In this document: positions 22,886 through 60,298 of the stretch, in pieces | Layout: each line of letters begins with the position of its first letter | Position numbering within the stretch: the stretch's first letter is position 1 | Assembly (NCBI RefSeq): GCF_002355415.1 | Contig: NZ_AP014936.1 | Location: 930,001 to 994,000, forward strand | Direction: 5' to 3' | DNA length: 64,000 bases | Origin: Sulfurifustis variabilis | GTDB taxonomy: Bacteria; Pseudomonadota; Gammaproteobacteria; Acidiferrobacterales; Sulfurifustaceae | The notes under the pieces: generated by a model | What the model saw: the letters and a program-made list of their open reading frames with translations, nothing else | Databases searched by the model: none | What the model was told of the DNA's origin: nothing | Program-made: the position numbers and the translations under genes

Positions 22886-25800
22886 CTAGTTGATCTGCGC
22901 GTAGGGTCCCGGGGCGCGGTTCTGCCGGCCGAGCAACTCGAGAAACGCCTCCGGCGAGACCGGCGGGCTGAAGCAGTAGCCCTGAATGGCGTCGCAGCCA
23001 TGGGCGCGCAGGAACGCCAGCTGGTCCTCTGTTTCGACGCCCTCCGCGATCACGCGCATGTCCAGGCTGTGCGCCATGGCGATAATGGTCTTCGTGATCG
23101 CCGCATCGTCCGGGTCCGTCGTGATGTCGCGCACGAAGGTGCGGTCGATCTTGATGAGATCGAGCGGGAACCGCTTCAGGTAGGCCAGCGAAGAGTATCC
23201 CGTGCCGAAGTCGTCCATCGAAAACGTCACGCCGATACCGTCGAGGGTCCGCAGCATCGCCGCGGCGGCCTCGACGTTGTGCATCAGCAGGCTCTCCGTC
23301 AGCTCCAGCTCCAGGTAGCGCGGCGCAAGCCCGGTCTCCTCGATCGTCCGTTTCACGACCAGGCTGAGGTCGTGGTTCATGAACTGGCGCCCGGACAGAT
23401 TGACCGCGACCCGCAGACGCTTGAAACCGGCGGCGTGCCAGCCGCGCGCGCGCGTGCAGGCTTCGCGCAGCACCCATTCGCCGATCGGCACGATGAGTCC
23501 CGTCTCCTCGGCGAGGGAGATGAAGTCGCCGGGCGGCAACAGTCCGAGCTCGGGGTGCTGCCAGCGCAGAAGGGCCTCCGCGGCGACGATGCGGCCCGTG
23601 GCGAGGTCGAGCTGCGGCTGAAAGTGCAGAAGCAGCTCGTTGCGGTCGAGGGCACGCCGCAGATCGGTTTCGAGACGCAGGCGCCTCTGCGCCCGGGCGT
23701 TGAGCTCTGCGGTATAGAAGCGGAAGGTGTTGCGACCCGACTCCTTCGCTTCGTACATGGCGGCGTCCGCGTGCTTGAGCAGCCCTTCGGGCTCGCGCGC
23801 GTCGAGCGGGTACACCGCGATTCCGACGCTCGCGCTGGTGAACAGCTCGCGTGCCCCGATCTGGAACGCGGGTCCGAAGCTCGCCAGGATGCGCTGCGTC
23901 ACGCCGGTGATCTCGTCCATCTCCGCGATCTGGCTGAGCACCACGACGAATTCGTCGCCGCCGATCCGCGCGACGCTGTCGCCGGGGCGAACGCAGGCGG
24001 CCAGGCGCTCGGCGACCGTGCGCAGCAGAACGTCGCCGGCTTCGTGCCCCAGCGTGTCGTTGATGGTCTTGAAGCGGTCGAGGTCGAGCAGCAACACCGC
24101 CGTGAGGAGGCCGTCCTCCCCGGACGCGTGCGCGGCCTGCCTCAGGCGCTCGGTGAGCTTCAGACGGTTCGGCAGCCCGGTCAGGCCGTCGTGGTAGGCA
24201 AGGTAGCGAAGCTGCTCCTCCGACTGTTTGCGTTCGGTAATGTCCTGCACAATCGCGACGAACACGGGCGGCTCGTCGTGGCGCGAGAGCTGCAGGCGCA
24301 CCTCGACCGGGTAGACGCTGCCGTCCCGGCGCCGGTGCTGAGTGACGAACGAAGTCGTCTCCTGCTCGCCGCGGCGCAGCGGCGTCAGCAGGGCCTCGAA
24401 GCTGTCCCGATCGAACTCGGGCTTGAGATCGACCGGCGTCAGCCCCTTCAGCTCCTCGAGCGAGTAGCCGAGGTTGCGCTGCGCGCCGCGGTTCACCTGC
24501 ACGATGCGCAGATCGTTGGCGTTGAAGACGTAGATCTCGTTCGACGAGTCGTCGAGGATGCGCCCCAGGCGGGCGACCGCGTCTTCGGCGCGCTTGAGCT
24601 CCGTGATGTCGCGTCCCGTGCCGCGGTAGCCCAGGAACGCGCCGTCCGGCGCGAAGAACGGCTCGCCGCTCACCTCGCTGTAGCGTACCTCACCGTTGAC
24701 GTCCCGCCGCTTCAGGACGAGGCCGTGAAACGGCCGGCGCGCTTCGAGCGTCGCACGGTGCATCCGCCAGGTTTCCTCGCTCACGTCGACGTAGGGCAGC
24801 TCCCAGCGCGTCTTGCCCAGGCTGTCGCGCGCCGGGAAACGCCGTTCGGCCTCGGCGTTTCGACGGATGCGCGTGAATCGGTAATGGGCGTCCTGCTCCC
24901 AGTACCAGTCGGAAGACAGCGCCGTGAGCTGCCGGAAGCGTTCGTCGCTCGCGCGCAGCGCCCGTTCGGCCTGCCGCCGCTCGGCGATCTCGCGCACCAG
25001 CTTGCGGGCGAGCGGCACCACCTGCCAGCGCAGGAGCAGCACGCCGGCGACGGTGACGAGCAGGACGACGCCGACCATCGGCAGAAGCTGCGCGCGTATG
25101 GGCGCGTAGATCTCGCCGCGCCGCACCTTGACGATCATGCCGAGCCCCAGGGAGCCGATCGGCGCGTGCGCGGCGAGGACGTTGCGGTGCTGCGCGTCGT
25201 TGGTGATGACGGTGCCGGTTTTTCCCTCGAGCGCGTACGCCATCGGAACCGGTTCGCCGCGGACGTGCCGCGGCGCCTTCAGTACCTTGTGTCCGTTGGA
25301 GCGGTTCGGAAGGCACTGCATCTGCACTCCGAGCGGAGCGCAGACGGCCATTGTGCCGGTGTCCCCGAGCCCGGTGACGTCTTCGAACAGCTGCTCGATC
25401 GCCGGCACCGGGATTTCGGTGCGGATCGTTCCGGCCGGCCGTCCGCTTCCGTGAAATTCGCGCGTGCCGCGCACGACCAGCCGCCCGGCGTGGATGAGCG
25501 TATGGCCGGGCCAGCCGTGCAGCTCGGCCTCGAACTCGGGCGCGCTGAACTCGCCGCGCCGGCTGACGAAACGCCCGGCCGCGTCATGCAGGGCGATCGC
25601 CGAAGCGCCGACGGTCTGCTGGATGTTGTCGACGATGGCCTCGATCTCGCGGCGCTCCGCGGTGGACAGGGTGTCGTACGAGAGCTTGTCCATCAGCGTG
25701 TTGAGGCGCGGCCGCTGGCTGATCAGCAGCGTTTGCCCGGCGGCGTGCGCCACGGCGGCCTCGAACGCCGCCAGGCGGTGTCGCAGCGAAACCTGGAGGC

Positions 25801-26515
25801 TGTCGGTCAGCACGTCCTGCGCGGTGCGCGCGAGGAGGCTGAAGCCGAGCACCCCGGAGCCGGACGCGAGGCACAAGAGCAGCACCGTGCTGAACAGCGC
25901 GATCTTGCGGTCCTCGGCGATGTCCGCGCGCGGGTCCGCGGGCATGCGGGTGTGCGCCTGCACCGTGAGCGCGATGCCGGCGAGGATCATCGAGGCCGCC
26001 GTCCATGGCCGCATGCGGGCATCGGAATAGCGGTCGAGCAGCGAATCCATGCCGGGAACGTAAGTGGCGAGATCGAGGAGACCGACGAGCGTGGCCGCGG
26101 TGACGAGGGCGTAGACCACGCCGCGCAGGGCGGCGTGCCGCGCATAGGCGACGAGCGCGATCCCGAGGCCCGCGCCGATAAAGCCCGCCGCCGCGGTGAG
26201 GTGCATGGACGGACCGCTAGCGGATGCGTGCAAACGAGCGACGGTGTCGCCGTCCAGGACCAGGGCGACAAGCGGGATGAGGACGAGGCCTGCGGGCAGG
26301 GCGCGGTCGAGGGGTATCCGGGCGAGCCGGCGCCGGGGCGCCAGAAGCTGAATCCCGAGCAGGACGAAGCAGAACGCGACCGCGGGCATGGGAAGGCTGC
26401 GGACGAGGGCCGGTGCGAGGCCTACCCGGTCCAGGGGCCACAGGGCCAAAGGCGCCATCCCGATCGCCAAGGCGACGGATCCGGCAAACGCGACGGTCAG
26501 CTTGGGAAGCTGCAT
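22886..26515 (-). CDS. membrane PAS-PAS-GGDEF-EAL cyclic-di-GMP enzyme
   Basis: Encodes 1209 residues. The N-terminus has about eight membrane helices (1-230), then a helix, an extracytoplasmic sensor region of about 250 residues and another helix before LARKLVREIAERRQAERAL. Two PAS domains follow, each ending in DITE(L/R)K. The GGDEF domain has an intact RIGGDEF and an I-site RPGD five residues before it. The EAL domain keeps EALLRW, NLSGRQF, ELTES, MDDFGTGYSSL and AEGVET. Both cyclase and phosphodiesterase activities are therefore possible. The ATG at 26515 follows AGGAG; an ATG at 26539 is an alternative. Confidence 0.93.
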   Translation of the reverse strand: MQLPKLTVAFAGSVALAIGMAPLALWPLDRVGLAPALVRSLPMPAVAFCFVLLGIQLLAPRRRLARIPLDRALPAGLVLIPLVALVLDGDTVARLHASASGPSMHLTAAAGFIGAGLGIALVAYARHAALRGVVYALVTAATLVGLLDLATYVPGMDSLLDRYSDARMRPWTAASMILAGIALTVQAHTRMPADPRADIAEDRKIALFSTVLLLCLASGSGVLGFSLLARTAQDVLTDSLQVSLRHRLAAFEAAVAHAAGQTLLISQRPRLNTLMDKLSYDTLSTAERREIEAIVDNIQQTVGASAIALHDAAGRFVSRRGEFSAPEFEAELHGWPGHTLIHAGRLVVRGTREFHGSGRPAGTIRTEIPVPAIEQLFEDVTGLGDTGTMAVCAPLGVQMQCLPNRSNGHKVLKAPRHVRGEPVPMAYALEGKTGTVITNDAQHRNVLAAHAPIGSLGLGMIVKVRRGEIYAPIRAQLLPMVGVVLLVTVAGVLLLRWQVVPLARKLVREIAERRQAERALRASDERFRQLTALSSDWYWEQDAHYRFTRIRRNAEAERRFPARDSLGKTRWELPYVDVSEETWRMHRATLEARRPFHGLVLKRRDVNGEVRYSEVSGEPFFAPDGAFLGYRGTGRDITELKRAEDAVARLGRILDDSSNEIYVFNANDLRIVQVNRGAQRNLGYSLEELKGLTPVDLKPEFDRDSFEALLTPLRRGEQETTSFVTQHRRRDGSVYPVEVRLQLSRHDEPPVFVAIVQDITERKQSEEQLRYLAYHDGLTGLPNRLKLTERLRQAAHASGEDGLLTAVLLLDLDRFKTINDTLGHEAGDVLLRTVAERLAACVRPGDSVARIGGDEFVVVLSQIAEMDEITGVTQRILASFGPAFQIGARELFTSASVGIAVYPLDAREPEGLLKHADAAMYEAKESGRNTFRFYTAELNARAQRRLRLETDLRRALDRNELLLHFQPQLDLATGRIVAAEALLRWQHPELGLLPPGDFISLAEETGLIVPIGEWVLREACTRARGWHAAGFKRLRVAVNLSGRQFMNHDLSLVVKRTIEETGLAPRYLELELTESLLMHNVEAAAAMLRTLDGIGVTFSMDDFGTGYSSLAYLKRFPLDLIKIDRTFVRDITTDPDDAAITKTIIAMAHSLDMRVIAEGVETEDQLAFLRAHGCDAIQGYCFSPPVSPEAFLELLGRQNRAPGPYAQIN

Positions 26516-26744
26516 GCAGCCCCACTCCTGCTGTGACATGGCCGGAGCTGGGCGGCCCCGTTTTCATCCGCGCGGCGGCGTCGATGCCTCGGCCGTCCTT
26601 AACCACGCGGTTCCCCTTTGATTCATAAGCTTAGCCGCATGCGGCGCCAATTCCAGCAGGAAAGCCCGTCGGATGGCGACCGCGACACCGGGGCGCTAGC
26701 ATGGCGGGCGGCTCGCGGATGTTTTGCAGCCGCCAGCCGCCACG

Positions 26745-51820: not shown

Positions 51821-53800
51821 ATGCAAAACGACGTGACCGCAGTTCCCCGCCGGGGCCGGCTCTGGCTCGCGGTCGTCGGGCTCCTGCTGGTCGCGGGTCG
51901 TGCGGACGCTCAGACCGGGCCGCCCCTGCGCATCGCCGTGGCCCAGACCGCGCTCGATACGGGGCTCTTCGGCGCGCTGGCGGCCGATTACCGCGAGATG
52001 TCGCCGCAGGCGCACGTGATCCTGCTGCCCTTCGGCTCCCTCGCCACGCTCGATGCGGCGCGCAGCGGCAATGCCGATCTGGTCATCACCCACCACGCGC
52101 CGAGCGAAGAGCAGTTCGTGCGCGAAGGCTACGGCGTGCTGCGCACGCTCGTCATGTACAACGAGTTCGCCGTCTTCGGTCCCTCCGACGATCCCCTGCG
52201 GCTGCGCGGCGAACGCGATCCGGTCGCGGCCCTCCGGCGTCTCGCGCGCGCCGGCGCGCCCTTTTTCGCGCCGGACAACCGTTCCGGCACGCAACGCAAG
52301 CTCGAGGAGCTCTGGGAGCTTGCGGGCGTGCGGCCGGACTGGATCGGTTACGAGCGAACGTTCGCCAGTCCGCAGGCGGCCCTGCGCTACGCGGACCTGT
52401 TCGGCGGCTACACCTTCGCCGATCTCGCGACCTACCTCGTGCTGCGCGAAGAGCTGGGAGGCGGCGTGATCCCGCTGGTCCGCGATCACGTGCTGCTGCG
52501 CAACTACTATTCCGCGATCGTCGTGAACCGCGAGCGCGTGCCGGGAGCGCATCAGGAGGCGGCCCAGGCGTTTCTGGATTACCTCGTCTCGGACCGGGCG
52601 CAGGAGCTCATCCGGCGGTACGGTCAGGACCGCTACCAGGCGCAGATCTTCAATCCGGCGGCGTCGACCGATGCCGGGCTCGTCGCCCGGCGCCGGGCCG
52701 AGCGCGAAAGCGAATCGCGCACCTTCGCCGGCATGGCGGCCCTCTCCGCGGCGCTCGTGTTGCTCGCCGGAATCGCGGTGCTCCTGTTCCTGCGCGCCCA
52801 TCGTCTCGAGCGCACGCGGCGCGCGAGCGAGGAGCGGTTCCGCCGCGCGGTCGAGGGCACGGAGGACGGGGTGTGGGACTGGGACCTCGCCGCCGATCGC
52901 GCGTTCCTTTCGCCCCGGCTGCGCCAGATGCTGGGACGGGGCGGCGAGGACGACTTCGTCCGCGGGCCCAGGCAGGTCTTCGGCGAGGCGATGCATCCGG
53001 ACGACCGGTTCCGGGTCGAGGAGCAGCTCGACAGATACCTGGCGGGCGCGGGGGAGGGCGAGCTCTTTCTCGCGGAGTTCCGGACGCTGCCGGGTCCGGA
53101 CGCGCCCCGCTGGATGCTCATGCGCGGCAAGGCGACGCGCGACGAGGCCGGTCGCGCGGTTCGGGTGTCGGGATCGGTGACCGACATCACGGAGCGCAAG
53201 CGCCAGGAAGCGGTCATCGCGCACCTCGCCACGCACGACACGCTGACCGGGCTGCCGAACCGCGCGCTCCTGCACGAACGCCTGGCGGCGCTCCAGACGC
53301 CGGCCGGACGCTTCGCGCTGCTCATCCTCGATCTCGACGGCTTCAAGGAAATCAACGACGGTCTCGGGCACCACGTCGGGGACCTGCTGCTGCAGCAGGT
53401 GGGGCAGCGCCTGCGGGAGCGGATCCTGCCTCCCCACACGGTCGCCCGGCTCGGCGGCGACGAGTTCGCGGTGCTCGTTCCCCTCGCCGACACCGCGTCC
53501 GCCGAGCGCGTGGCGCGCGAAGTGCTTCTCACGCTCGAGGACGACTTCCTCATCCATCCGCACAAGCTGCGCGTGGGGGGCAGCCTGGGGATCGCCATGT
53601 ATCCCGAGCACGGCACGACCACGGAGACGATCGTCCGCCACGCCGACGTCGCGATGTACAACGCGAAGCGTTCGGGCAGGGGCGTCGCGTTCTACGATCC
53701 GGACGGCGAGCGGGCGTGCAACGCCGCGTGCGTGCGCCGCCGCCGCGGGTACCTCGGTGCCGCGCCCGCCGTGCCGGGCGGGTGGGCCCCGGTCGCCTGA
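51821..53800 (+). CDS. TupA-like binding domain fused to PAS and GGDEF
   Basis: Encodes 659 residues. Signal peptide (1-30), then a periplasmic binding domain (about 35-285) close to tungstate/molybdate-binding TupA: GNADLVITHHAPSEEQFVREG, YGVLRTLVMYNEFAVFGPSDD, DNRSGTQRKLEELWELAG. One membrane helix (about 303-326) leads to PAS (about 340-460, ending DITERK) and GGDEF (LGGDEFAVL intact). The RxxD I-site is absent. It is probably a diguanylate cyclase regulated by an oxyanion or small ligand. The usual TTS ligand motif reads QTA. Confidence 0.9.
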   Translation: MQNDVTAVPRRGRLWLAVVGLLLVAGRADAQTGPPLRIAVAQTALDTGLFGALAADYREMSPQAHVILLPFGSLATLDAARSGNADLVITHHAPSEEQFVREGYGVLRTLVMYNEFAVFGPSDDPLRLRGERDPVAALRRLARAGAPFFAPDNRSGTQRKLEELWELAGVRPDWIGYERTFASPQAALRYADLFGGYTFADLATYLVLREELGGGVIPLVRDHVLLRNYYSAIVVNRERVPGAHQEAAQAFLDYLVSDRAQELIRRYGQDRYQAQIFNPAASTDAGLVARRRAERESESRTFAGMAALSAALVLLAGIAVLLFLRAHRLERTRRASEERFRRAVEGTEDGVWDWDLAADRAFLSPRLRQMLGRGGEDDFVRGPRQVFGEAMHPDDRFRVEEQLDRYLAGAGEGELFLAEFRTLPGPDAPRWMLMRGKATRDEAGRAVRVSGSVTDITERKRQEAVIAHLATHDTLTGLPNRALLHERLAALQTPAGRFALLILDLDGFKEINDGLGHHVGDLLLQQVGQRLRERILPPHTVARLGGDEFAVLVPLADTASAERVAREVLLTLEDDFLIHPHKLRVGGSLGIAMYPEHGTTTETIVRHADVAMYNAKRSGRGVAFYDPDGERACNAACVRRRRGYLGAAPAVPGGWAPVA

Positions 53801-53808
53801 CGCTTCTT

Positions 53809-54813
53809 ATGGCCGGAAAGGCAGCTGTCCGGAAGAAGGCGCCGGCCACGAAGAAGCGCGGACGGCTCTCGCCGCGACGCGAGAAGCGCGGGCTCGACGC
53901 CGCCGACATCGCGCTCGGGCTGGACGGGGCCGACGTCGCGCCCCTGGTGGCGGAGGTCCGGGCCGCGGGCGGTGCGGCGCTCGGCGCCTACCGCGAGCCG
54001 TTGTCCGGGAGGGCGCTCCTGCTCGCCGCCCTCCCGGTCGACGCCGTCGAACCGACGCCGTTCCAGCGCGACCTCTCGCCGACGCACACCAAACGCCTCG
54101 CCGCGAAGATCGAGGAGGCCGGCTCGTTTCTCGATCCCCTGATCGTCGTGCGCGGCGAGGACGGAAAACTGTGGACCCCGAACGGCCGCCATCGGCTCGC
54201 GGCGGCCAAGGTGCTCGGCCTCAAGCAGGTCACCGCGCTCGTCTCGCCGGACGAGGACCTCGCGTTCCGCATCCTCGCGCTCAACACGGAAAAGGCGCAC
54301 AACCTCAAGGATCGCAGCCTCGAGGTGATCCGCATGGCGCGCAGCCTTGCGAAGCGCCGGCCGGGATCGAAAGAGGCCGAGTTCACCGCCGAGTTCGAGG
54401 CGCCGGAGCTGCTGACGCTCGGGATCGTCTATGAGCGCAACGGCCGCTTCGCGGGCGGCGCGTACAGCCCGTTCCTGAAGAAGGTCGACCGCTTCAGCGA
54501 CCGCACGCTCGCCGTGAGCCTGCGGAGCCGAGAGGCGTATGCCGCGCGCCTCGAAGGCATCGACGCGCAGGTGAAGCGCATCATCGAGGGTCTCCAGAGC
54601 CGCGGTTTCAAGTCGCCGTATCTGCGGGCGTACGTGGTCGCGCGGATCAATCCCGTGCGGTTTCACAAGCTGAAGAAGGGCGAGACGAAACCGCCGATGC
54701 CGATCGGCGAGGCGCTCACGCGCATGGCCGCGGGTGCGAAGAAGTTCAACCTCGATTCGGTCCGGACCGCGGACCTCGCGCTGGTCGCCGCGGTCGCGGG
54801 CGGCGAAGAGTAA
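53809..54813 (+). CDS. ParB/Srx-type nuclease-domain protein
   Basis: Encodes 334 residues. A Lys/Arg-rich N-terminus (2-27) precedes a ParB-like domain: LPVDAVEPTPFQRDLSPTHTKRLAAKI, FLDPLIVVRGEDGKLWTPNGRHRLAAAKVLGL. The latter is the GERR-like CTP-binding region in variant form. No HTH of the chromosome-segregation ParB is evident, and no parA is near. A role in DNA metabolism or plasmid-like maintenance is possible. It starts nine bases after the GGDEF gene's stop, with 16 bases to the next gene. Confidence 0.8.
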   Translation: MAGKAAVRKKAPATKKRGRLSPRREKRGLDAADIALGLDGADVAPLVAEVRAAGGAALGAYREPLSGRALLLAALPVDAVEPTPFQRDLSPTHTKRLAAKIEEAGSFLDPLIVVRGEDGKLWTPNGRHRLAAAKVLGLKQVTALVSPDEDLAFRILALNTEKAHNLKDRSLEVIRMARSLAKRRPGSKEAEFTAEFEAPELLTLGIVYERNGRFAGGAYSPFLKKVDRFSDRTLAVSLRSREAYAARLEGIDAQVKRIIEGLQSRGFKSPYLRAYVVARINPVRFHKLKKGETKPPMPIGEALTRMAAGAKKFNLDSVRTADLALVAAVAGGEE

Positions 54814-55994: not shown

Positions 55995-56534
55995 ATGGCC
56001 AATCCATTACGAGTAGGCGAGTCGGTATCACATGGACCGCGCACACTGCTTAAGCGACCAGAGCTAGCAGCGCTCATCGGCTGCGCATGTGCTGATTGGG
56101 CGTACATCGAAAGCTCTTTAACCATGTTTTACGGGCATCTGATGGGCGTCTATCTCCCAAAACATCCAGAATTTGAACCCCCATTACATCCTGTCGCCCT
56201 CCAAGTCCTAGATGAGCTCCAAAGCATTCACGCCAAAGTAAATCTGGTCAAGAAGTTGGCTGATTGGGTTATCAAGGATGAGGTACAGAGAAAGGATGTG
56301 TTATCTGTATTGGATAAATTAAGAAAAGCAGGCGAAGGCAGGAATTTGGTAGCCCATGGAGTTTGGGGCATCTGCGAATCCGAACCTGAAGCTCTAATAC
56401 TTCTCCCCACATTCGGGCATCAAATGATTTACAGAAAGCAAGATTTCGAATTAGTTCTTGAAAAAATTCAGAGAGCCAAGGTTGAGCTTGGCCGCATACA
56501 CCATGAGTTCTATCAGCGGCGCCGTAACAAGTAG
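55995..56534 (+). CDS. cassette 1: candidate HEPN-like protein
   Basis: Encodes 179 residues, all-helical, no signal. RNLVAH (116-121) inside KAGEGRNLVAHGVWG is an RX4H motif as in HEPN ribonuclease domains, and it follows a helix in the expected way. VLDELQSIHAKVNLVKKLAD and the C-terminal DFELVLEKIQRAKVELGR are long helices. HEPN proteins act as toxins or in phage defence, but non-nuclease members exist. No antitoxin-like partner is adjacent. The gene begins four bases after the array's first core site. Confidence 0.65.
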   Translation: MANPLRVGESVSHGPRTLLKRPELAALIGCACADWAYIESSLTMFYGHLMGVYLPKHPEFEPPLHPVALQVLDELQSIHAKVNLVKKLADWVIKDEVQRKDVLSVLDKLRKAGEGRNLVAHGVWGICESEPEALILLPTFGHQMIYRKQDFELVLEKIQRAKVELGRIHHEFYQRRRNK

Positions 56535-56621
56535 TCCTAAGATGGCGCTCAACCTCGCTCCCTTCGGTCGCTGGGCGCTGCGCCAAAAAGCGGCGCAGCG
56601 CAGGTTAGCTCTGCGTTGGGC
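56534..56621 (+). repeat. attC site 1
   Basis: R'' GTCCTAAG (imperfect), L'' GCTCAACC (56547-56554), a strong central stem GCGCTGCGCC/GGCGCAGCGC, L' GGTTAGCT (56603-56610) and R' GTTGGGC (56615-56621). The right half reads like a textbook integron attC. Confidence 0.8.
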
Positions 56622-56630
56622 GTATCAATC

Positions 56631-57173
56631 ATGAAAGAACTGATCTTGTTGATACTCGGAGGGGTCGGTGGATTTCTCCTCCATACAATCACAATGAAGG
56701 TTAGTTTCAAGCAGCGCGCAATTGAGAACAAGATCAAGGTCTTTGACTCGCTTATTGGCACGTGGGTGCAGATGCGGAATTTCATATACGCACACCACAC
56801 TGGGCAACCGATGCAAGCGGTACCGCGTGATGTCGCGCAGCAGTTCGATCAGATGTACGGGCAGTCACAGCAACTGATTGGGGAAGCGATCCTAGTCTGT
56901 GAAGACGATGTGTTAACCGGTGACATCAATGCACTAAATGAACGTATGTACCGAACGGAGTGGTATAGCTTGGAACATATTCAAGCAAACGAAGCAATAG
57001 AGCAGATAAAACGAGAAGCCGTGGCGCTGATTGCGCGCATGAGAGAGGACATCAAAGGCAGCACGCGCTTAGAGTGGCGGGACTTTGCCCATATCGCCTC
57101 TGGTCTCTCGCCATTGCGACGCAAGGCCCAACAAGGTGCTCAACCAAACGCGCAAGATCGGCGCGCCGGTTAG
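56631..57173 (+). CDS. cassette 2: membrane-anchored helical protein
   Basis: Encodes 180 residues. One N-terminal membrane segment (2-24, LILLILGGVGGFLLHTITM) precedes a long helical cytoplasmic domain (QQFDQMYGQSQQLIGEAIL, IEQIKREAVALIARMRED). The stop lies inside the downstream attC, as is common for cassette genes. The ATG is 10 bases after the R' core. No homologue is recognised. Confidence 0.65.
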   Translation: MKELILLILGGVGGFLLHTITMKVSFKQRAIENKIKVFDSLIGTWVQMRNFIYAHHTGQPMQAVPRDVAQQFDQMYGQSQQLIGEAILVCEDDVLTGDINALNERMYRTEWYSLEHIQANEAIEQIKREAVALIARMREDIKGSTRLEWRDFAHIASGLSPLRRKAQQGAQPNAQDRRAG

Positions 57174-57187
57174 CTAGTTCGTTATGG
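57126..57187 (+). repeat. attC site 2
   Basis: R'' GCCCAAC (57126-57132), L'' GCTCAACC (57138-57145), L' GGTTAGCT (57168-57175), R' GTTATGG (57181-57187). It is short (62 bases). The next gene's ATG lies inside R'. Confidence 0.8.
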
Positions 57188-57699
57188 CACAAATGAATAA
57201 GCCCACAAAATTGATCCTTCTGCTCCTCAGCCACGTGCTGTTTGCTGTCGGCGGCGGAGTGCTCGGCTATCTGGCCCATGAGAAGCTCGTCTCAAGCATC
57301 GCGTTTGTGGATGAGGTGGCGTTGGTCTCTCGTGCCGCAACCTACGTCGACATACAGCGCGCGCAGGGAAGCACAAAAGACTATAAAGCGGCGCTTCTTG
57401 CATACCTCGAGGTGCTTGAGAAATACAGGCACGAACCAAGCGTGCTGTTTACGGAAAGAGTGCACTCCGTAGATAAGACGCTTGCCTATGTCCGCCTTGC
57501 CAGAGTGGCAGAGGCAGAAGGAAATCGCACCGAAGTCGCTTCTTACTCAAAGAATGCCGTCGCCTCATGTGCTGGTACTGGTTGGAAGGACTGCTCCAAG
57601 GAGAAACTCTGGGCCATTACGGCACGGCTGGATAAAGCAAGTTTTATGGGTGCCGGTACCAATAACGAGCGTCGGGGCGGAAGTAATGTTGCGCCATAA
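57184..57699 (+). CDS. cassette 3: membrane-anchored protein, possibly TPR-like
   Basis: Encodes 171 residues. A membrane anchor (about 9-30, ILLLLSHVLFAVGGGVLGYL) is followed by helix pairs (DYKAALLAYLEVLEKYRHEPS, KTLAYVRLARVAEAEGNRTEV) that resemble tetratricopeptide units. The start codon is within the R' site of attC 2, so translation begins at the recombination junction. Function unknown. Confidence 0.65.
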   Translation: MAQMNKPTKLILLLLSHVLFAVGGGVLGYLAHEKLVSSIAFVDEVALVSRAATYVDIQRAQGSTKDYKAALLAYLEVLEKYRHEPSVLFTERVHSVDKTLAYVRLARVAEAEGNRTEVASYSKNAVASCAGTGWKDCSKEKLWAITARLDKASFMGAGTNNERRGGSNVAP

Positions 57700-57783
57700 C
57701 ACGTCGCTCGTGCCGACACCGCAAACAGCGTGGTACGTTTCCTGGTGTTTTCGTGGCCGGTGCGGCACACCTCTGCGTTAGAT
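57693..57783 (+). repeat. attC site 3
   Basis: R'' GCCATAAC (57693-57700) and R' GTTAGAT (57777-57783). Inner arms CGCTCGTGCCGACACC and GGCCGGTGCGGCAC are partly complementary. The gene stop at 57697-57699 lies in R''. Confidence 0.75.
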
Positions 57784-57786
57784 TGC

Positions 57787-58173
57787 ATGAACAAAAAGAG
57801 AAGCCAGTTTCATATCACGGAAGTTCCGAGCCTGGACGCGTCGGCAGGCTCGGTTGGCGTGGATATTGGCTACCTCGGCTACGATGACCACATGAAAGCA
57901 TTCGTCGATATCTTTGAGAAATTCGTTCATGACAACAAAGGCATTCTCAGCGCCTTCGAAAGCATTTCTGTTGAGGCTAAGAAACCAACTGGCCGTCTGG
58001 TTGTGGGCTTGGGTGCAGCTGGTGGCGTTAGCAGCCTTTTCTCAAATGCGAGGGAAGTCGGTAAAGAGCTATATTGCTCAAACAACGACAAGGTCAAGTT
58101 GGTGCTATCCGGTAAGGGTGGTCAAAGGTCCCTCTTTGTCACTTTCGACAACCCACATTTTTCGTTCGGGTGA
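57787..58173 (+). CDS. cassette 4: small protein of unknown function
   Basis: Encodes 128 residues, soluble. VGVDIGYLGYDDHMKAFVDIFEKF and RLVVGLGAAGGVSSLFSNAREVG form a possible alpha/beta core; KVKLVLSGKGGQRSLFVTFDN ends the chain. It starts three bases after R' of attC 3. No family recognised. Confidence 0.65.
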   Translation: MNKKRSQFHITEVPSLDASAGSVGVDIGYLGYDDHMKAFVDIFEKFVHDNKGILSAFESISVEAKKPTGRLVVGLGAAGGVSSLFSNAREVGKELYCSNNDKVKLVLSGKGGQRSLFVTFDNPHFSFG

Positions 58174-58182
58174 GAAAATGCA

Positions 58183-58271
58183 ATCTAACTTTTGCTCGTG
58201 CCGACGCCCGGGACAGCGCGCCATGTTTCCTGGCGTATCGGTGGCGGACGCGGCCCAGCAAAGCGTTATGG
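58183..58271 (+). repeat. attC site 4
   Basis: R'' ATCTAAC (58183-58189) and R' GTTATGG (58265-58271), with GCTCGTGCCGACGCC on the left and GGTGGCGGACGCGGC on the right. It resembles attC sites 3 and 7. Confidence 0.78.
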
Positions 58272-58306
58272 GGCAACAGCCCTCCACTAAATGACAAGCG
58301 GCAGGT

Positions 58307-58720
58307 ATGGTAAGCGAAGGCGTTAAGATCCGGGCTCAGATCGATACCGAGAGCGTTCGCAACGTAATGCTGGTTAACGGCGGCGGCTCCGTCGCGTTGC
58401 TAGCGCTGTTGCCTGCAGTTCTCGGTACGCCGCTCGTTTTCGGAGTGCTTCTCACACTCGCGATTTGGCTTCTTGGTCTGACCCTAGCGGTAAGTCATAG
58501 CGTGCTGCGTCGTAAATGCTCGCTTGTTTACGAGCAACACGGCATGAGGCCTCATCTTGGGAAACCTAGGTTGTGGATCAAACCGAACCAACCGTGGGTT
58601 TGTTGGTGGGGGTGGTGGTGTCTATACACGTCGATCTTCGCGTTCCTGATTGGAGGGGCCGTGATGGTATCCGTAGGTTTCGCAAACATCGACGTCTTGA
58701 GCACTTCATTGAAGCCGTAA
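58307..58720 (+). CDS. cassette 5: multi-pass membrane protein
   Basis: Encodes 137 residues with three or so membrane helices (about 29-46, 48-67, 100-125). A Trp-rich patch PWVCWWGWWCLY marks the third. Between them lies a cytoplasmic SHSVLRRKCSLVYEQHG segment. No known motif. Possibly a small membrane effector. Confidence 0.6.
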   Translation: MVSEGVKIRAQIDTESVRNVMLVNGGGSVALLALLPAVLGTPLVFGVLLTLAIWLLGLTLAVSHSVLRRKCSLVYEQHGMRPHLGKPRLWIKPNQPWVCWWGWWCLYTSIFAFLIGGAVMVSVGFANIDVLSTSLKP

Positions 58721-58745
58721 AGTAAAGTGTGGCGGCCCGAAATGC

Positions 58746-58811
58746 CTCATAACAATCGCTTCGAGACGTTCGCGCGCCGCCTCCGCTCGCCGCTCGAGCG
58801 AATCGTTATGT
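58746..58811 (+). repeat. attC site 5
   Basis: CTCATAAC (58746-58753) and GTTATGT (58805-58811) are the outer cores. CAATCGCTTCGAG and CTCGAGCGAATCG are inner near-complementary arms. 66 bases. Confidence 0.7.
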
Positions 58812-58825
58812 TGCGAGAGAACTGA

Positions 58826-59152
58826 ATGACTAAACGTGGCTTTCTAGGTTTTTTGTCTGCTGCCGGCTTCTTACCTGTCCTCTGTTTCAAGGCCGCTCAT
58901 GGGGGAGAAAAAGTGAGTGAGAAATTTAAAGGTCCGTTTGGTTCCTGCTGCAAAGATCTCTCGGACGCCATGAAGCAACCACCCAGCTCGTTTTTCTTTG
59001 TCGAGAAAAACCAAGTTCTATATCTAACCGTTGGCTATGTCCAAACAGAAAAGGGCCCGGGCTGGTTCGACCAAGCCGTAATCTTTTGCCCGTTCTGCGG
59101 TAAGCAACTTCAGTCCCGAGAGGAAATAGCAAAGAAAGCAGCGCGTGGCTAA
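58826..59152 (+). CDS. cassette 6: small Cys-containing protein with CPFCG motif
   Basis: Encodes 108 residues. A hydrophobic N-terminus (about 5-22) may be a signal or anchor. The body has GSCCKDLSDAMKQPP and ends with AVIFCPFCGKQLQSREE, whose CPFCG can bind zinc or act in redox. VLYLTVGYVQTEKGPGWF suggests a beta sheet. Related small proteins occur in other cassette arrays, but I cannot name one. Confidence 0.6.
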   Translation: MTKRGFLGFLSAAGFLPVLCFKAAHGGEKVSEKFKGPFGSCCKDLSDAMKQPPSSFFFVEKNQVLYLTVGYVQTEKGPGWFDQAVIFCPFCGKQLQSREEIAKKAARG

Positions 59153-59241
59153 ACAACGCAACACAACATTCAGGTCGAGCATGAGACGACGGCGCATTCC
59201 CTGATGTCTCGTGCCCCGTGCCGCTCACCAACACGTTAGGT
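59147..59241 (+). repeat. attC site 6
   Basis: R' GTTAGGT (59235-59241) is canonical. R'' is less clear; GGCTAAAC (59147-59154) is the best candidate and contains the stop codon of cassette 6. GAGCATGAGACGACGGC and GCCCCGTGCCGCTC lie between. Confidence 0.55.
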
Positions 59242-59463
59242 ATCTTGAGTGCAAATACGAAGCCGAAACGTGACTTTTTCCCTGCTTATCGTGCTTGAGC
59301 GTTGGCTGCTAGGCCAAGTTTGGCACCGGGCTACATGGCCATGCAATTCAGTGAAGGCGAGCCGAAGTGACAAAACAACCATCTAACCACTGGCTCGTGC
59401 TGACGCTGGGACAAGGCGCTATGTTTCCTGATATTTCGGCGACCGGCGCCGCACAGCCAGACC
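59242..59463 (+). other. cassette 7: no convincing gene
   Basis: Between attC 6 and attC 7 only about 140 bases are free. The sole frame from the junction (TTG at 59245, about 17 codons to TGA at 59296-59298) is too short to call. It could be an ORF-less cassette, carry a promoter, or be a truncated gene. Confidence 0.55.
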
Positions 59464-59470
59464 GTTAGAA
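59381..59470 (+). repeat. attC site 7
   Basis: R'' ATCTAAC (59381-59387) and R' GTTAGAA (59464-59470). Inner words GCTCGTGCTGACGCTGGGACA and ATGTTTCCTG are nearly those of attC 4 and attC 3, so these three share an origin. Confidence 0.75.
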
Positions 59471-59474
59471 ATCC

Positions 59475-59831
59475 ATGAAGCATCACAACAAGGCATTGAC
59501 GTCGGTCCTGTGCCTGTCCCTGTCGCCAGCGCTCTCGCAGGTTGGCGCCACGCCGCCATTCGATTGGGTGAAGGTTATATCCGAAAAGACGAACTCCTTA
59601 CGCGCGTGTGCGCGCCCATCGTCGCTCGAAAGCCGCCGGCTGACGGAGCTGCCGAGCGAAAAGTTGGTTTTGCTGGCGAGTCTCGACCCCGGCGCTATCT
59701 CCGATGGTTGCCACATTTCCATTTACAGCAGTGAAGATAAACAAAAGGTGTATTTGAGTGTTACCGGTGGACTGTCAAACCACATACGAATGTACTTCGG
59801 TCCCTTTCGTGCAACTGGCGAGGATTTCTAA
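59475..59831 (+). CDS. cassette 8a: exported small protein
   Basis: Encodes 118 residues. A signal peptide (about 1-25, ALSQVGA) is likely. The mature part has two Cys (RACARPS, DGCHISI) and a beta-rich C-terminus (ISIYSSEDKQKVYLSVTGG). The stop lies at the start of the next attC. No known homologue. The ATG is four bases after R' of attC 7. Confidence 0.6.
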   Translation: MKHHNKALTSVLCLSLSPALSQVGATPPFDWVKVISEKTNSLRACARPSSLESRRLTELPSEKLVLLASLDPGAISDGCHISIYSSEDKQKVYLSVTGGLSNHIRMYFGPFRATGEDF

Positions 59832-59913
59832 CATCATTCATAACGAGGCGGGCGGTGAAACGACGACGGCCTTCGTAAACCGCAGCGCCGATGCCGCTTA
59901 GAGAACGTTAGAC
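59826..59913 (+). repeat. attC site 8
   Basis: R' GTTAGAC (59907-59913). R'' is TTCTAAC (59826-59832), near the complement of R', with an alternative TTCATAAC at 59837-59844. Inner arms GGCGGTGAAACGACG and CGATGCCGC are partly complementary. Confidence 0.65.
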
Positions 59914-59923
59914 TACAGCCGAA

Positions 59924-60298
59924 ATGACGGAGTTTCTGGTAGTTCTGGTTGTTATTCTCGTCGCCGGCGCGACGCTTTACTCGTTTTTAGAGGACATCCT
60001 GCTTTTCTTCGAATTACGAAACGGGCCGAAAGAAATCAAGCATCATTCAGGAACGGAAGCGCTGGTGGGGCAGAGATGCCAAGTTACCGAAAGCGGCGGC
60101 GGGACGTCTTTGCGCGTCTTACTGAATGGCGAGAACTGGCAAGCTTCGCTCTCGAAGTCCGTTAGTGGCGTTCCTGCGGTTGGCTCTTTACTCAGGGTCG
60201 TTGGCGTATCGGGACTAATTCTGCATGTCGAACCATTGAGCGAATCGAATTCGCTCGACCCGCCGCCCCTTAAGGCAACGTCAGAGCGCTCGAGATGA
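59924..60298 (+). CDS. last cassette: NfeD-like OB-fold membrane protein
   Basis: Encodes 124 residues. A single membrane helix (3-25, FLVVLVVILVAGATLYSFL) is followed by a C-terminal segment ALVGQRCQVTES, LRVLLNGENWQASL and VGSLLRVVGVSGLILHVEPL that resembles the NfeD OB-fold domain. NfeD proteins pair with membrane proteases or stomatins, but none is near. No attC is recognisable downstream, so it may be fixed in place or its site lost. Confidence 0.68.
   Translation: MTEFLVVLVVILVAGATLYSFLEDILLFFELRNGPKEIKHHSGTEALVGQRCQVTESGGGTSLRVLLNGENWQASLSKSVSGVPAVGSLLRVVGVSGLILHVEPLSESNSLDPPPLKATSERSR

Follow-up and report, generated by a model that had tools for sequence, protein, structure and literature searches.

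A TupA-fold ectodomain joined to PAS and GGDEF in Sulfurifustis variabilis, a probable anion receptor of c-di-GMP signalling

The protein encoded at positions 51821-53800 (+) of the window, i.e. of the 64,000-nucleotide stretch of Sulfurifustis variabilis skN76 DNA that was analysed, is best explained, with a probability of roughly 0.6, as a single-pass Venus-flytrap c-di-GMP receptor whose ligand would be an anion other than tungstate or molybdate and which, in S. variabilis, would operate as a cyclase only, free of product inhibition. In the mechanism proposed here, a periplasmic domain of TupA fold would close on a small anion, most likely neither tungstate nor molybdate, and this closure would shift the membrane helix, predicted to be continuous with the signalling helix before the PAS domain; the shift would in turn set the activity of the GGDEF dimer. 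Having neither the EAL half nor the RxxD I-site, the S. variabilis receptor should only make c-di-GMP, and its product should not inhibit it. Ligand binding, the chemical class of the ligand, coupling through the helix and cyclase activity are all parts of this mechanism that we infer from the observations set out below.

Domain layout and fold

The frame starts with ATG and encodes 659 amino acids followed by a stop codon. Residues 1-33 (51821-51919; RLWLAVVGLLLVAGRADA) resemble, by eye, a signal peptide, and the model assigns low pLDDT to residues 1-15 and 20-29. They precede the two-lobed periplasmic TupA-fold domain (residues 34-296; 51920-52708), a single membrane helix at about residues 306-326 (52736-52798; placed by hydropathy at about residues 300-330), a PAS domain (residues 334-464; 52820-53212) and a GGDEF domain (residues 466-626; 53216-53698) with an intact RLGGDEF signature, all read on the forward strand. 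Pfam recognised PBP_like_2 (PF12849) at residues 30-259 (E 6.2e-16, 59.4 bits, cut-off 27), PAS_3 (31.4 bits, cut-off 25.6) and GGDEF (PF00990; E 3.6e-41, 141 bits). In the full-length model (mean pLDDT 83.4), one continuous helix spanning residues 285-345 joins the ectodomain through the membrane to PAS, and residues 634-659 are predicted to be disordered (pLDDT <50); the pTM of 0.48 means that the arrangement of the domains in that model is not to be trusted. The codon pattern is normal throughout the sensor, PAS and GGDEF regions.

By sequence, the closest proteins of solved structure belong to the TupA type (3muq, 3lr1 and 5my5; E 1.4e-31 to 2.3e-24), and the separate model of the ectodomain (mean pLDDT 96.4) displays the two-lobed TupA fold, with the highest Z score obtained for apo-TupA 5my5 (Z 30.6, 2.0 A, 246 residues) and a Z of 28.1 for 3lr1. 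Foldseek placed 3muq first by E-value, but with a fit of 8.9 A (9.0 A in the comparison that gave the Z scores), the lobes being differently related. On the NCBIfam model tung_bind_TupA the window protein scored 86 bits against a cut-off of 400, a strict threshold under which the TupA of the same genome itself reaches just 217. The fold comparison, together with Pfam and hydropathy, bears out the sequence-only reading that had proposed a periplasmic domain close to TupA, linked by a single membrane helix to PAS and GGDEF.

The sensory branch and its pocket

When 11 sensor ectodomains were placed in one tree with 55 transport TupAs, the sensors split from the transport proteins with a branch support of 100/100, to be taken as rough given a bootstrap correlation of 0.984, below 0.99, and the long branch formed by the row of the Sulfuriflexus mobilis protein (G187). 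The set of 55 TupAs, which includes near-identical rows, consists of the highest-scoring matches in the loci returned and is not a random draw; a partial match (L153), repeats (L135 and L137-L139), rows with stops and identical rows were left out before counting. Judged by sequence, the window ectodomain belongs to a separate sensory branch, together with 10 relatives, and is not a TupA. Nine sensor copies were found in 8 of the 57 genomes of the order (the copy of G039, which spans two contig ends, was counted as one gene), and the evenly drawn class sample contained, by score and reading, three sensor genomes among 369, namely S. variabilis, G149 and G187, whereas in the phylum sample of 398 genomes (E up to 1e-40) the window gene alone exceeded 180 bits. 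The weakest sensor scored 250 bits and the best non-sensor match 180 in the class and phylum samples. At E up to 1e-10, Sulfuricaulis limicola HA5 (G004) gave no match to the sensor, and in the searches near G187 and G149 the only sensors were these two (1 of 4 and 1 of 2 genomes, respectively). Among the matches listed for the 80 kept loci when genome contigs were scanned with the whole protein, the start lies at residue 265 at least, which identifies them as GGDEF/PAS matches. None of the 116 records of the plasmid collection was at least 60% identical to the window protein; the best 15 of the 116 were 31-37% identical, 12 of these 15 being annotated as substrate- or solute-binding proteins.

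Scores in the transport range were also seen inside long open frames in the class and phylum tables (e.g. G781, G733, G784, G176, G123, G289 and G162). By eye, L167 760-2304 (-) (G174) combines TupA and a TupB-like permease in one frame; L183 and L189 each resemble a TupA placed downstream of a high-GC frame. At about 2.801-2.804 Mb of C1 in the S. variabilis genome (L005/L172), a PBP-clan gene (about 323 codons) has immediately behind it a frame that, by eye, encodes a membrane-HAMP-GGDEF protein; the pair would be a two-gene counterpart of the sensor-GGDEF fusion.

According to the available part of the source, the oxyanion-binding residues of D. alaskensis TupA are Thr9-11, Ser12, His59, Arg118, Thr124 and Asp170, and the R118E exchange abolished binding, R118Q weakened tungstate binding to about 90 nM and left none of molybdate, and R118K retained tight tungstate binding (PMC5517513). 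We assessed the pocket by aligning the 11 sensor ectodomains and the 55 transport TupAs to these residues. Arg118 is replaced in the window protein by P151 (52271-52273), and this column holds proline in eight sensors, alanine in two and glutamine in one, as against arginine in 55/55 TupAs; neither arginine nor lysine occurs there in any of the 11. On the alignment, the exchange, which the sequence-only reading did not contain, is more telling than the altered ligand motif that it did report. That motif indeed differs from TupA, but not as QTA in place of TTS: T9-T10-T11-S12 align to V40-A41-Q42-T43 (51938-51949), so that the TupA serine is replaced by a threonine, T43, and a hydroxyl is retained at the last position only. 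The Thr10 column carries alanine in 10 of the 11 sensors, and the Ser12 column threonine in eight and serine in three.

Other parts of the pocket are kept. The equivalents of His59 (H91; 52091-52093) and Thr124 (T157; 52289-52291) occur in all 11 sensors and that of Asp170 (D201; 52421-52423) in 10, and the branch has residues of its own, among them the arginines of the segment from R221 to R227 (52481-52501). R221 is found in 11/11 sensors vs 1/55 TupAs, 45 of which have E or Q at this position, R227 in 10/11 vs 3/55, and a two-residue insertion with P218 in 11/11 vs 0/55. With the residues just named kept or gained, the sensor pocket reads as changed and working rather than as decayed; R221 and R227 may serve a structural role.

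Gene neighbourhoods and candidate ligands

The window gene is adjoined by a divergent adk and by a ParB_N-like ORF (53809-54813 (+); PF02195, E 8e-4, below the cut-off), whose ATG lies 8 bases past the sensor stop and which is possibly co-transcribed with the sensor gene. Downstream of the sensor gene, positions 56001-60000 have a G+C content of only 0.526 (all other 4-kb segments lie at 0.67-0.71), contain small ORFs and constitute a candidate island; no tRNA was found in the 64-kb window. Of the eight neighbours of the window gene that were queried, adk alone was shared, with G187. The adk of the window and the one that adjoins the kinase gene of S. mobilis are 79% identical and differ in orientation; in the S. 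mobilis locus (L170 3494-10119), the TupA-like histidine kinase is surrounded by mscS, by adk and by genes for an NMT1-type binding protein and for a HAMP histidine kinase.

In four loci of the order (G011, G017, G019 and G039, from two families), selD, tauE, thioredoxin-like and propeller-like genes come next after the sensor, on the same strand and about 200-400 bp past it; by eye, cheY-cheA-cheW-mcp-cheR-cheD-cheB precede the sensor gene in the first three of them, and fccAB-like genes lie upstream of it in G039. The selD-tauE-thioredoxin-propeller group (L110, L111, L112 and L117) stands apart from the selA-selB operon, and its SelDs share 65-81% identity with the SelD of G011, which scored 417 bits against a cut-off of 299. 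The genome of G011 contains both kinds of selD, and selA-selB adjoin, by eye, the selDs of G033:C151, G007:C61 and G011:C22. Among the 10 selD loci read, which leave out the matches of G037, G043 and G029 and the second match of G033, tauE adjoins selD only in the four sensor loci. Across the order, selD exceeded the cut-off in 11/57 genomes overall and in 5/8 sensor genomes (hypergeometric p 0.0045, kinship ignored); counted among these five is S. variabilis, where selD is found solely inside a 748-codon frame read as an oxidoreductase-SelD fusion. The thioredoxin-propeller pair was dropped as a sensor partner: G005, G015 and G045 have the pair but not the sensor, so that only selD-tauE is tied to the sensor in the loci read. 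S. variabilis has a propeller match at another place in its genome.

What, then, might the ectodomain bind? The pocket makes an anion other than tungstate or molybdate the more likely candidate, and, as the sensor precedes selD and a TauE/SafE permease in four of the nine loci of the order, an oxyanion of sulfur or selenium (such as thiosulfate, sulfite or selenite) becomes, tentatively, the leading one. In this specific form of the best explanation, which we regard as possible and would not press further, the ectodomain might report sulfur or selenium supply to c-di-GMP. The pairing of tauE with selD, confined to sensor loci among the selD loci read, and the fccAB-like genes of G039 agree with such a ligand, and the two named carriers, S. 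variabilis (PMC5024460) and S. mobilis (PMC6397845), are both described in the accessible parts of these sources as sulfur oxidisers. However, the selD-tauE link is seen in just 4/9 loci, the window locus not among them, and the accompanying thioredoxin-propeller pair also occurs where there is no sensor. Sulfur genes are, moreover, common anyway: against 32 comparison genomes that were picked from the class list and not drawn at random, soxB exceeded the cut-off in 8/10 sensor genomes vs 17/32 others (Fisher p 0.16), and soxB or dsrA in 9/10 vs 18/32 (p 0.07), which makes them weak discriminators of sensor genomes.

Perhaps the former flytrap has instead become a docking module that binds a periplasmic partner protein. 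Residues that grip the anion in TupA have been lost, and the newly conserved ones could make an interface; yet the equivalents of His59, Thr124 and Asp170 are still conserved, and no constant partner gene stands beside the nine loci of the order, all of which leaves this reading unlikely.

Still harder to sustain is the idea that the ectodomain continues to bind tungstate or molybdate and makes the c-di-GMP output depend on how much of them is present. In its favour, TupA is the nearest family by both sequence and fold, and three of the binding residues have retained equivalents. Against it stand the absence of Arg118 from all 11 sensors and of most of the Thr run of TTTS, the abolished or weakened binding of the R118E and R118Q variants of TupA described in the available part of PMC5517513, and sensor flanks in which, among those listed, no tup or mod gene was seen by eye. 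At about C1:2.41 Mb, S. variabilis has an operon that reads as tupB-tupC-tupA and is adjoined by a MOT1-like gene, with genes read by eye as mobA, mobB and moeA also nearby; in this reading TupB and TupA fall below the NCBIfam cut-offs and the ATPase would fit many families. Being separate, this operon implies that molybdenum and tungsten uptake is served elsewhere than at the sensor locus. The lost arginine, the mostly lost threonines and the separate operon together make tungstate or molybdate sensing unlikely, and these two anions were accordingly set aside as expected ligands. Of the oxyanion control that the sequence-only reading had predicted, the tungstate/molybdate part is thus unsupported, given Arg118 (0/11 sensors vs 55/55 TupAs) and the placement of the sensor ectodomains on their own branch; another oxyanion is possible.

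The output half and comparison with known systems

The RLGGDEF signature of the window protein is accompanied by DLDGFK, IND, GH and GD motifs, whose residues we take to have metal and substrate roles. The signature is intact in 8 of the 10 GGDEF-bearing members of the family, the window protein among them, and altered in G001b and G010 (SGGDSF and LGGDTY); with two of ten altered, the output of the family may be mainly that of a phosphodiesterase. The inhibitory I-site is missing, as had been noticed from the letters of the sequence: L536-P-P-H539 (53426-53437) occupies the position at which relatives have, for example, RPSD or RPVD. RxxD is present in 7/10 GGDEF members (G011, G017, G019, G034, G001a, G039 and G149) and lost from the window protein, G001b and G010.

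Of the 10 GGDEF-bearing members found, nine have a C-terminal EAL domain that exceeds the Pfam cut-off (G011, G001a, G001b, G010, G017, G019, G034, G039 and G149), the window protein being the sole exception; the sequence-only reading, made without database searches, had no view of these nine relatives. The EAL catalytic motifs were found in 8/8 relatives examined, with ESL for EAL in G034; G149, whose EAL was found by Pfam, lay outside this check. No Pfam PAS match was obtained at E up to 0.01 in G017, G019 and G149, which indicates that PAS is not uniform among the sensor relatives. Read from these domain matches, the usual form of the family appears to be PAS-GGDEF-EAL. The S. mobilis protein has HisKA and HATPase_c as its output.

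How might the EAL half have been lost? In its place the window protein has a 33-residue C-terminal tail (53699-53797, forward strand) with G or C at 25/33 second codon positions, against 278/593 in the body; the oddity is marginal, since the richest 33-codon stretch of the body already has 24. No EAL remnant was detected after the window GGDEF by tblastn at E up to 10. A frameshifted or nearby remnant was likewise rejected, the sole strong EAL match in the window lying in a separate gene at 22886-26563 (-), a 1225-codon open frame that encodes another GGDEF-EAL protein. We infer that a deletion ran the frame into other DNA and that EAL was lost in S. variabilis rather than gained by the others. 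By losing its phosphodiesterase, the S. variabilis protein probably became a cyclase without feedback inhibition. That the gene is instead a truncated copy on its way out, without a working output, is very improbable: it is the only one of the ten GGDEF-bearing members without EAL and its tail is odd in composition, but 659 codons are open, the codon pattern of sensor, PAS and GGDEF is normal, and both the signature of the GGDEF domain and the conserved residues of the sensor have been preserved.

A feedback-free cyclase that arose by the loss of EAL and I-site from a two-way receptor could be part of a broader scenario, in which a TupA-fold branch was recruited in sulfur-oxidising gammaproteobacteria as a receptor of sulfur or selenium oxyanions and placed on c-di-GMP enzymes and a histidine kinase alike; as a whole, this scenario is doubtful. 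The narrower proposal of an anion receptor with cyclase-only output would still provide what looks like the conversion of a two-enzyme c-di-GMP protein into a mere cyclase. As the sensor relatives have different neighbours and outputs, both ligand and output are directly testable.

With TupA (5my5, 3lr1) the window ectodomain shares the fold, 27-28% identity and the equivalents of His59, Thr124 and Asp170. It differs in being fused to a signalling protein, in lacking Arg118 and most of the Thr run of TTTS, in its sensor-typical arginines and in its separate branch; its gene, moreover, is adjoined by adk and the ParB_N-like gene and not by tupB or tupC. The S. mobilis histidine kinase (G187; L170 7030-8790) has an ectodomain on the same sensory branch but a HisKA and HATPase_c output and no c-di-GMP domains. 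Like other GGDEF diguanylate cyclases, the window protein has an intact RLGGDEF; unlike them, it is without RxxD, a site that is common and not required, and its relatives are GGDEF-EAL proteins.

Among open-licence PMC papers, no report was found of a c-di-GMP protein whose ectodomain is TupA-like or of the PBP_like_2 family. The available part of PMC2996986 mentions tupA and GGDEF proteins separately, and that of PMC12911358 contains 'Tupana' and GGDEF.

Another known system close to the window protein is RmcA, which has PAS, GGDEF and EAL domains. In Pseudomonas aeruginosa it is described as a c-di-GMP protein with an SBP_bac_3 flytrap for L-arginine, and in the available portion of the same source this SBP_bac_3 type is the only one described as studied among PBP-clan c-di-GMP receptors (PMC8846402). 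The window protein resembles RmcA in linking a periplasmic PBP-clan domain through the membrane to a cytoplasmic c-di-GMP domain, and differs from it in having no EAL. PBP-clan c-di-GMP receptors are thus already known through RmcA; what is new is the variant with a TupA-type ectodomain, which belongs to another PBP-clan family and comes from a named, cultured sulfur oxidiser.
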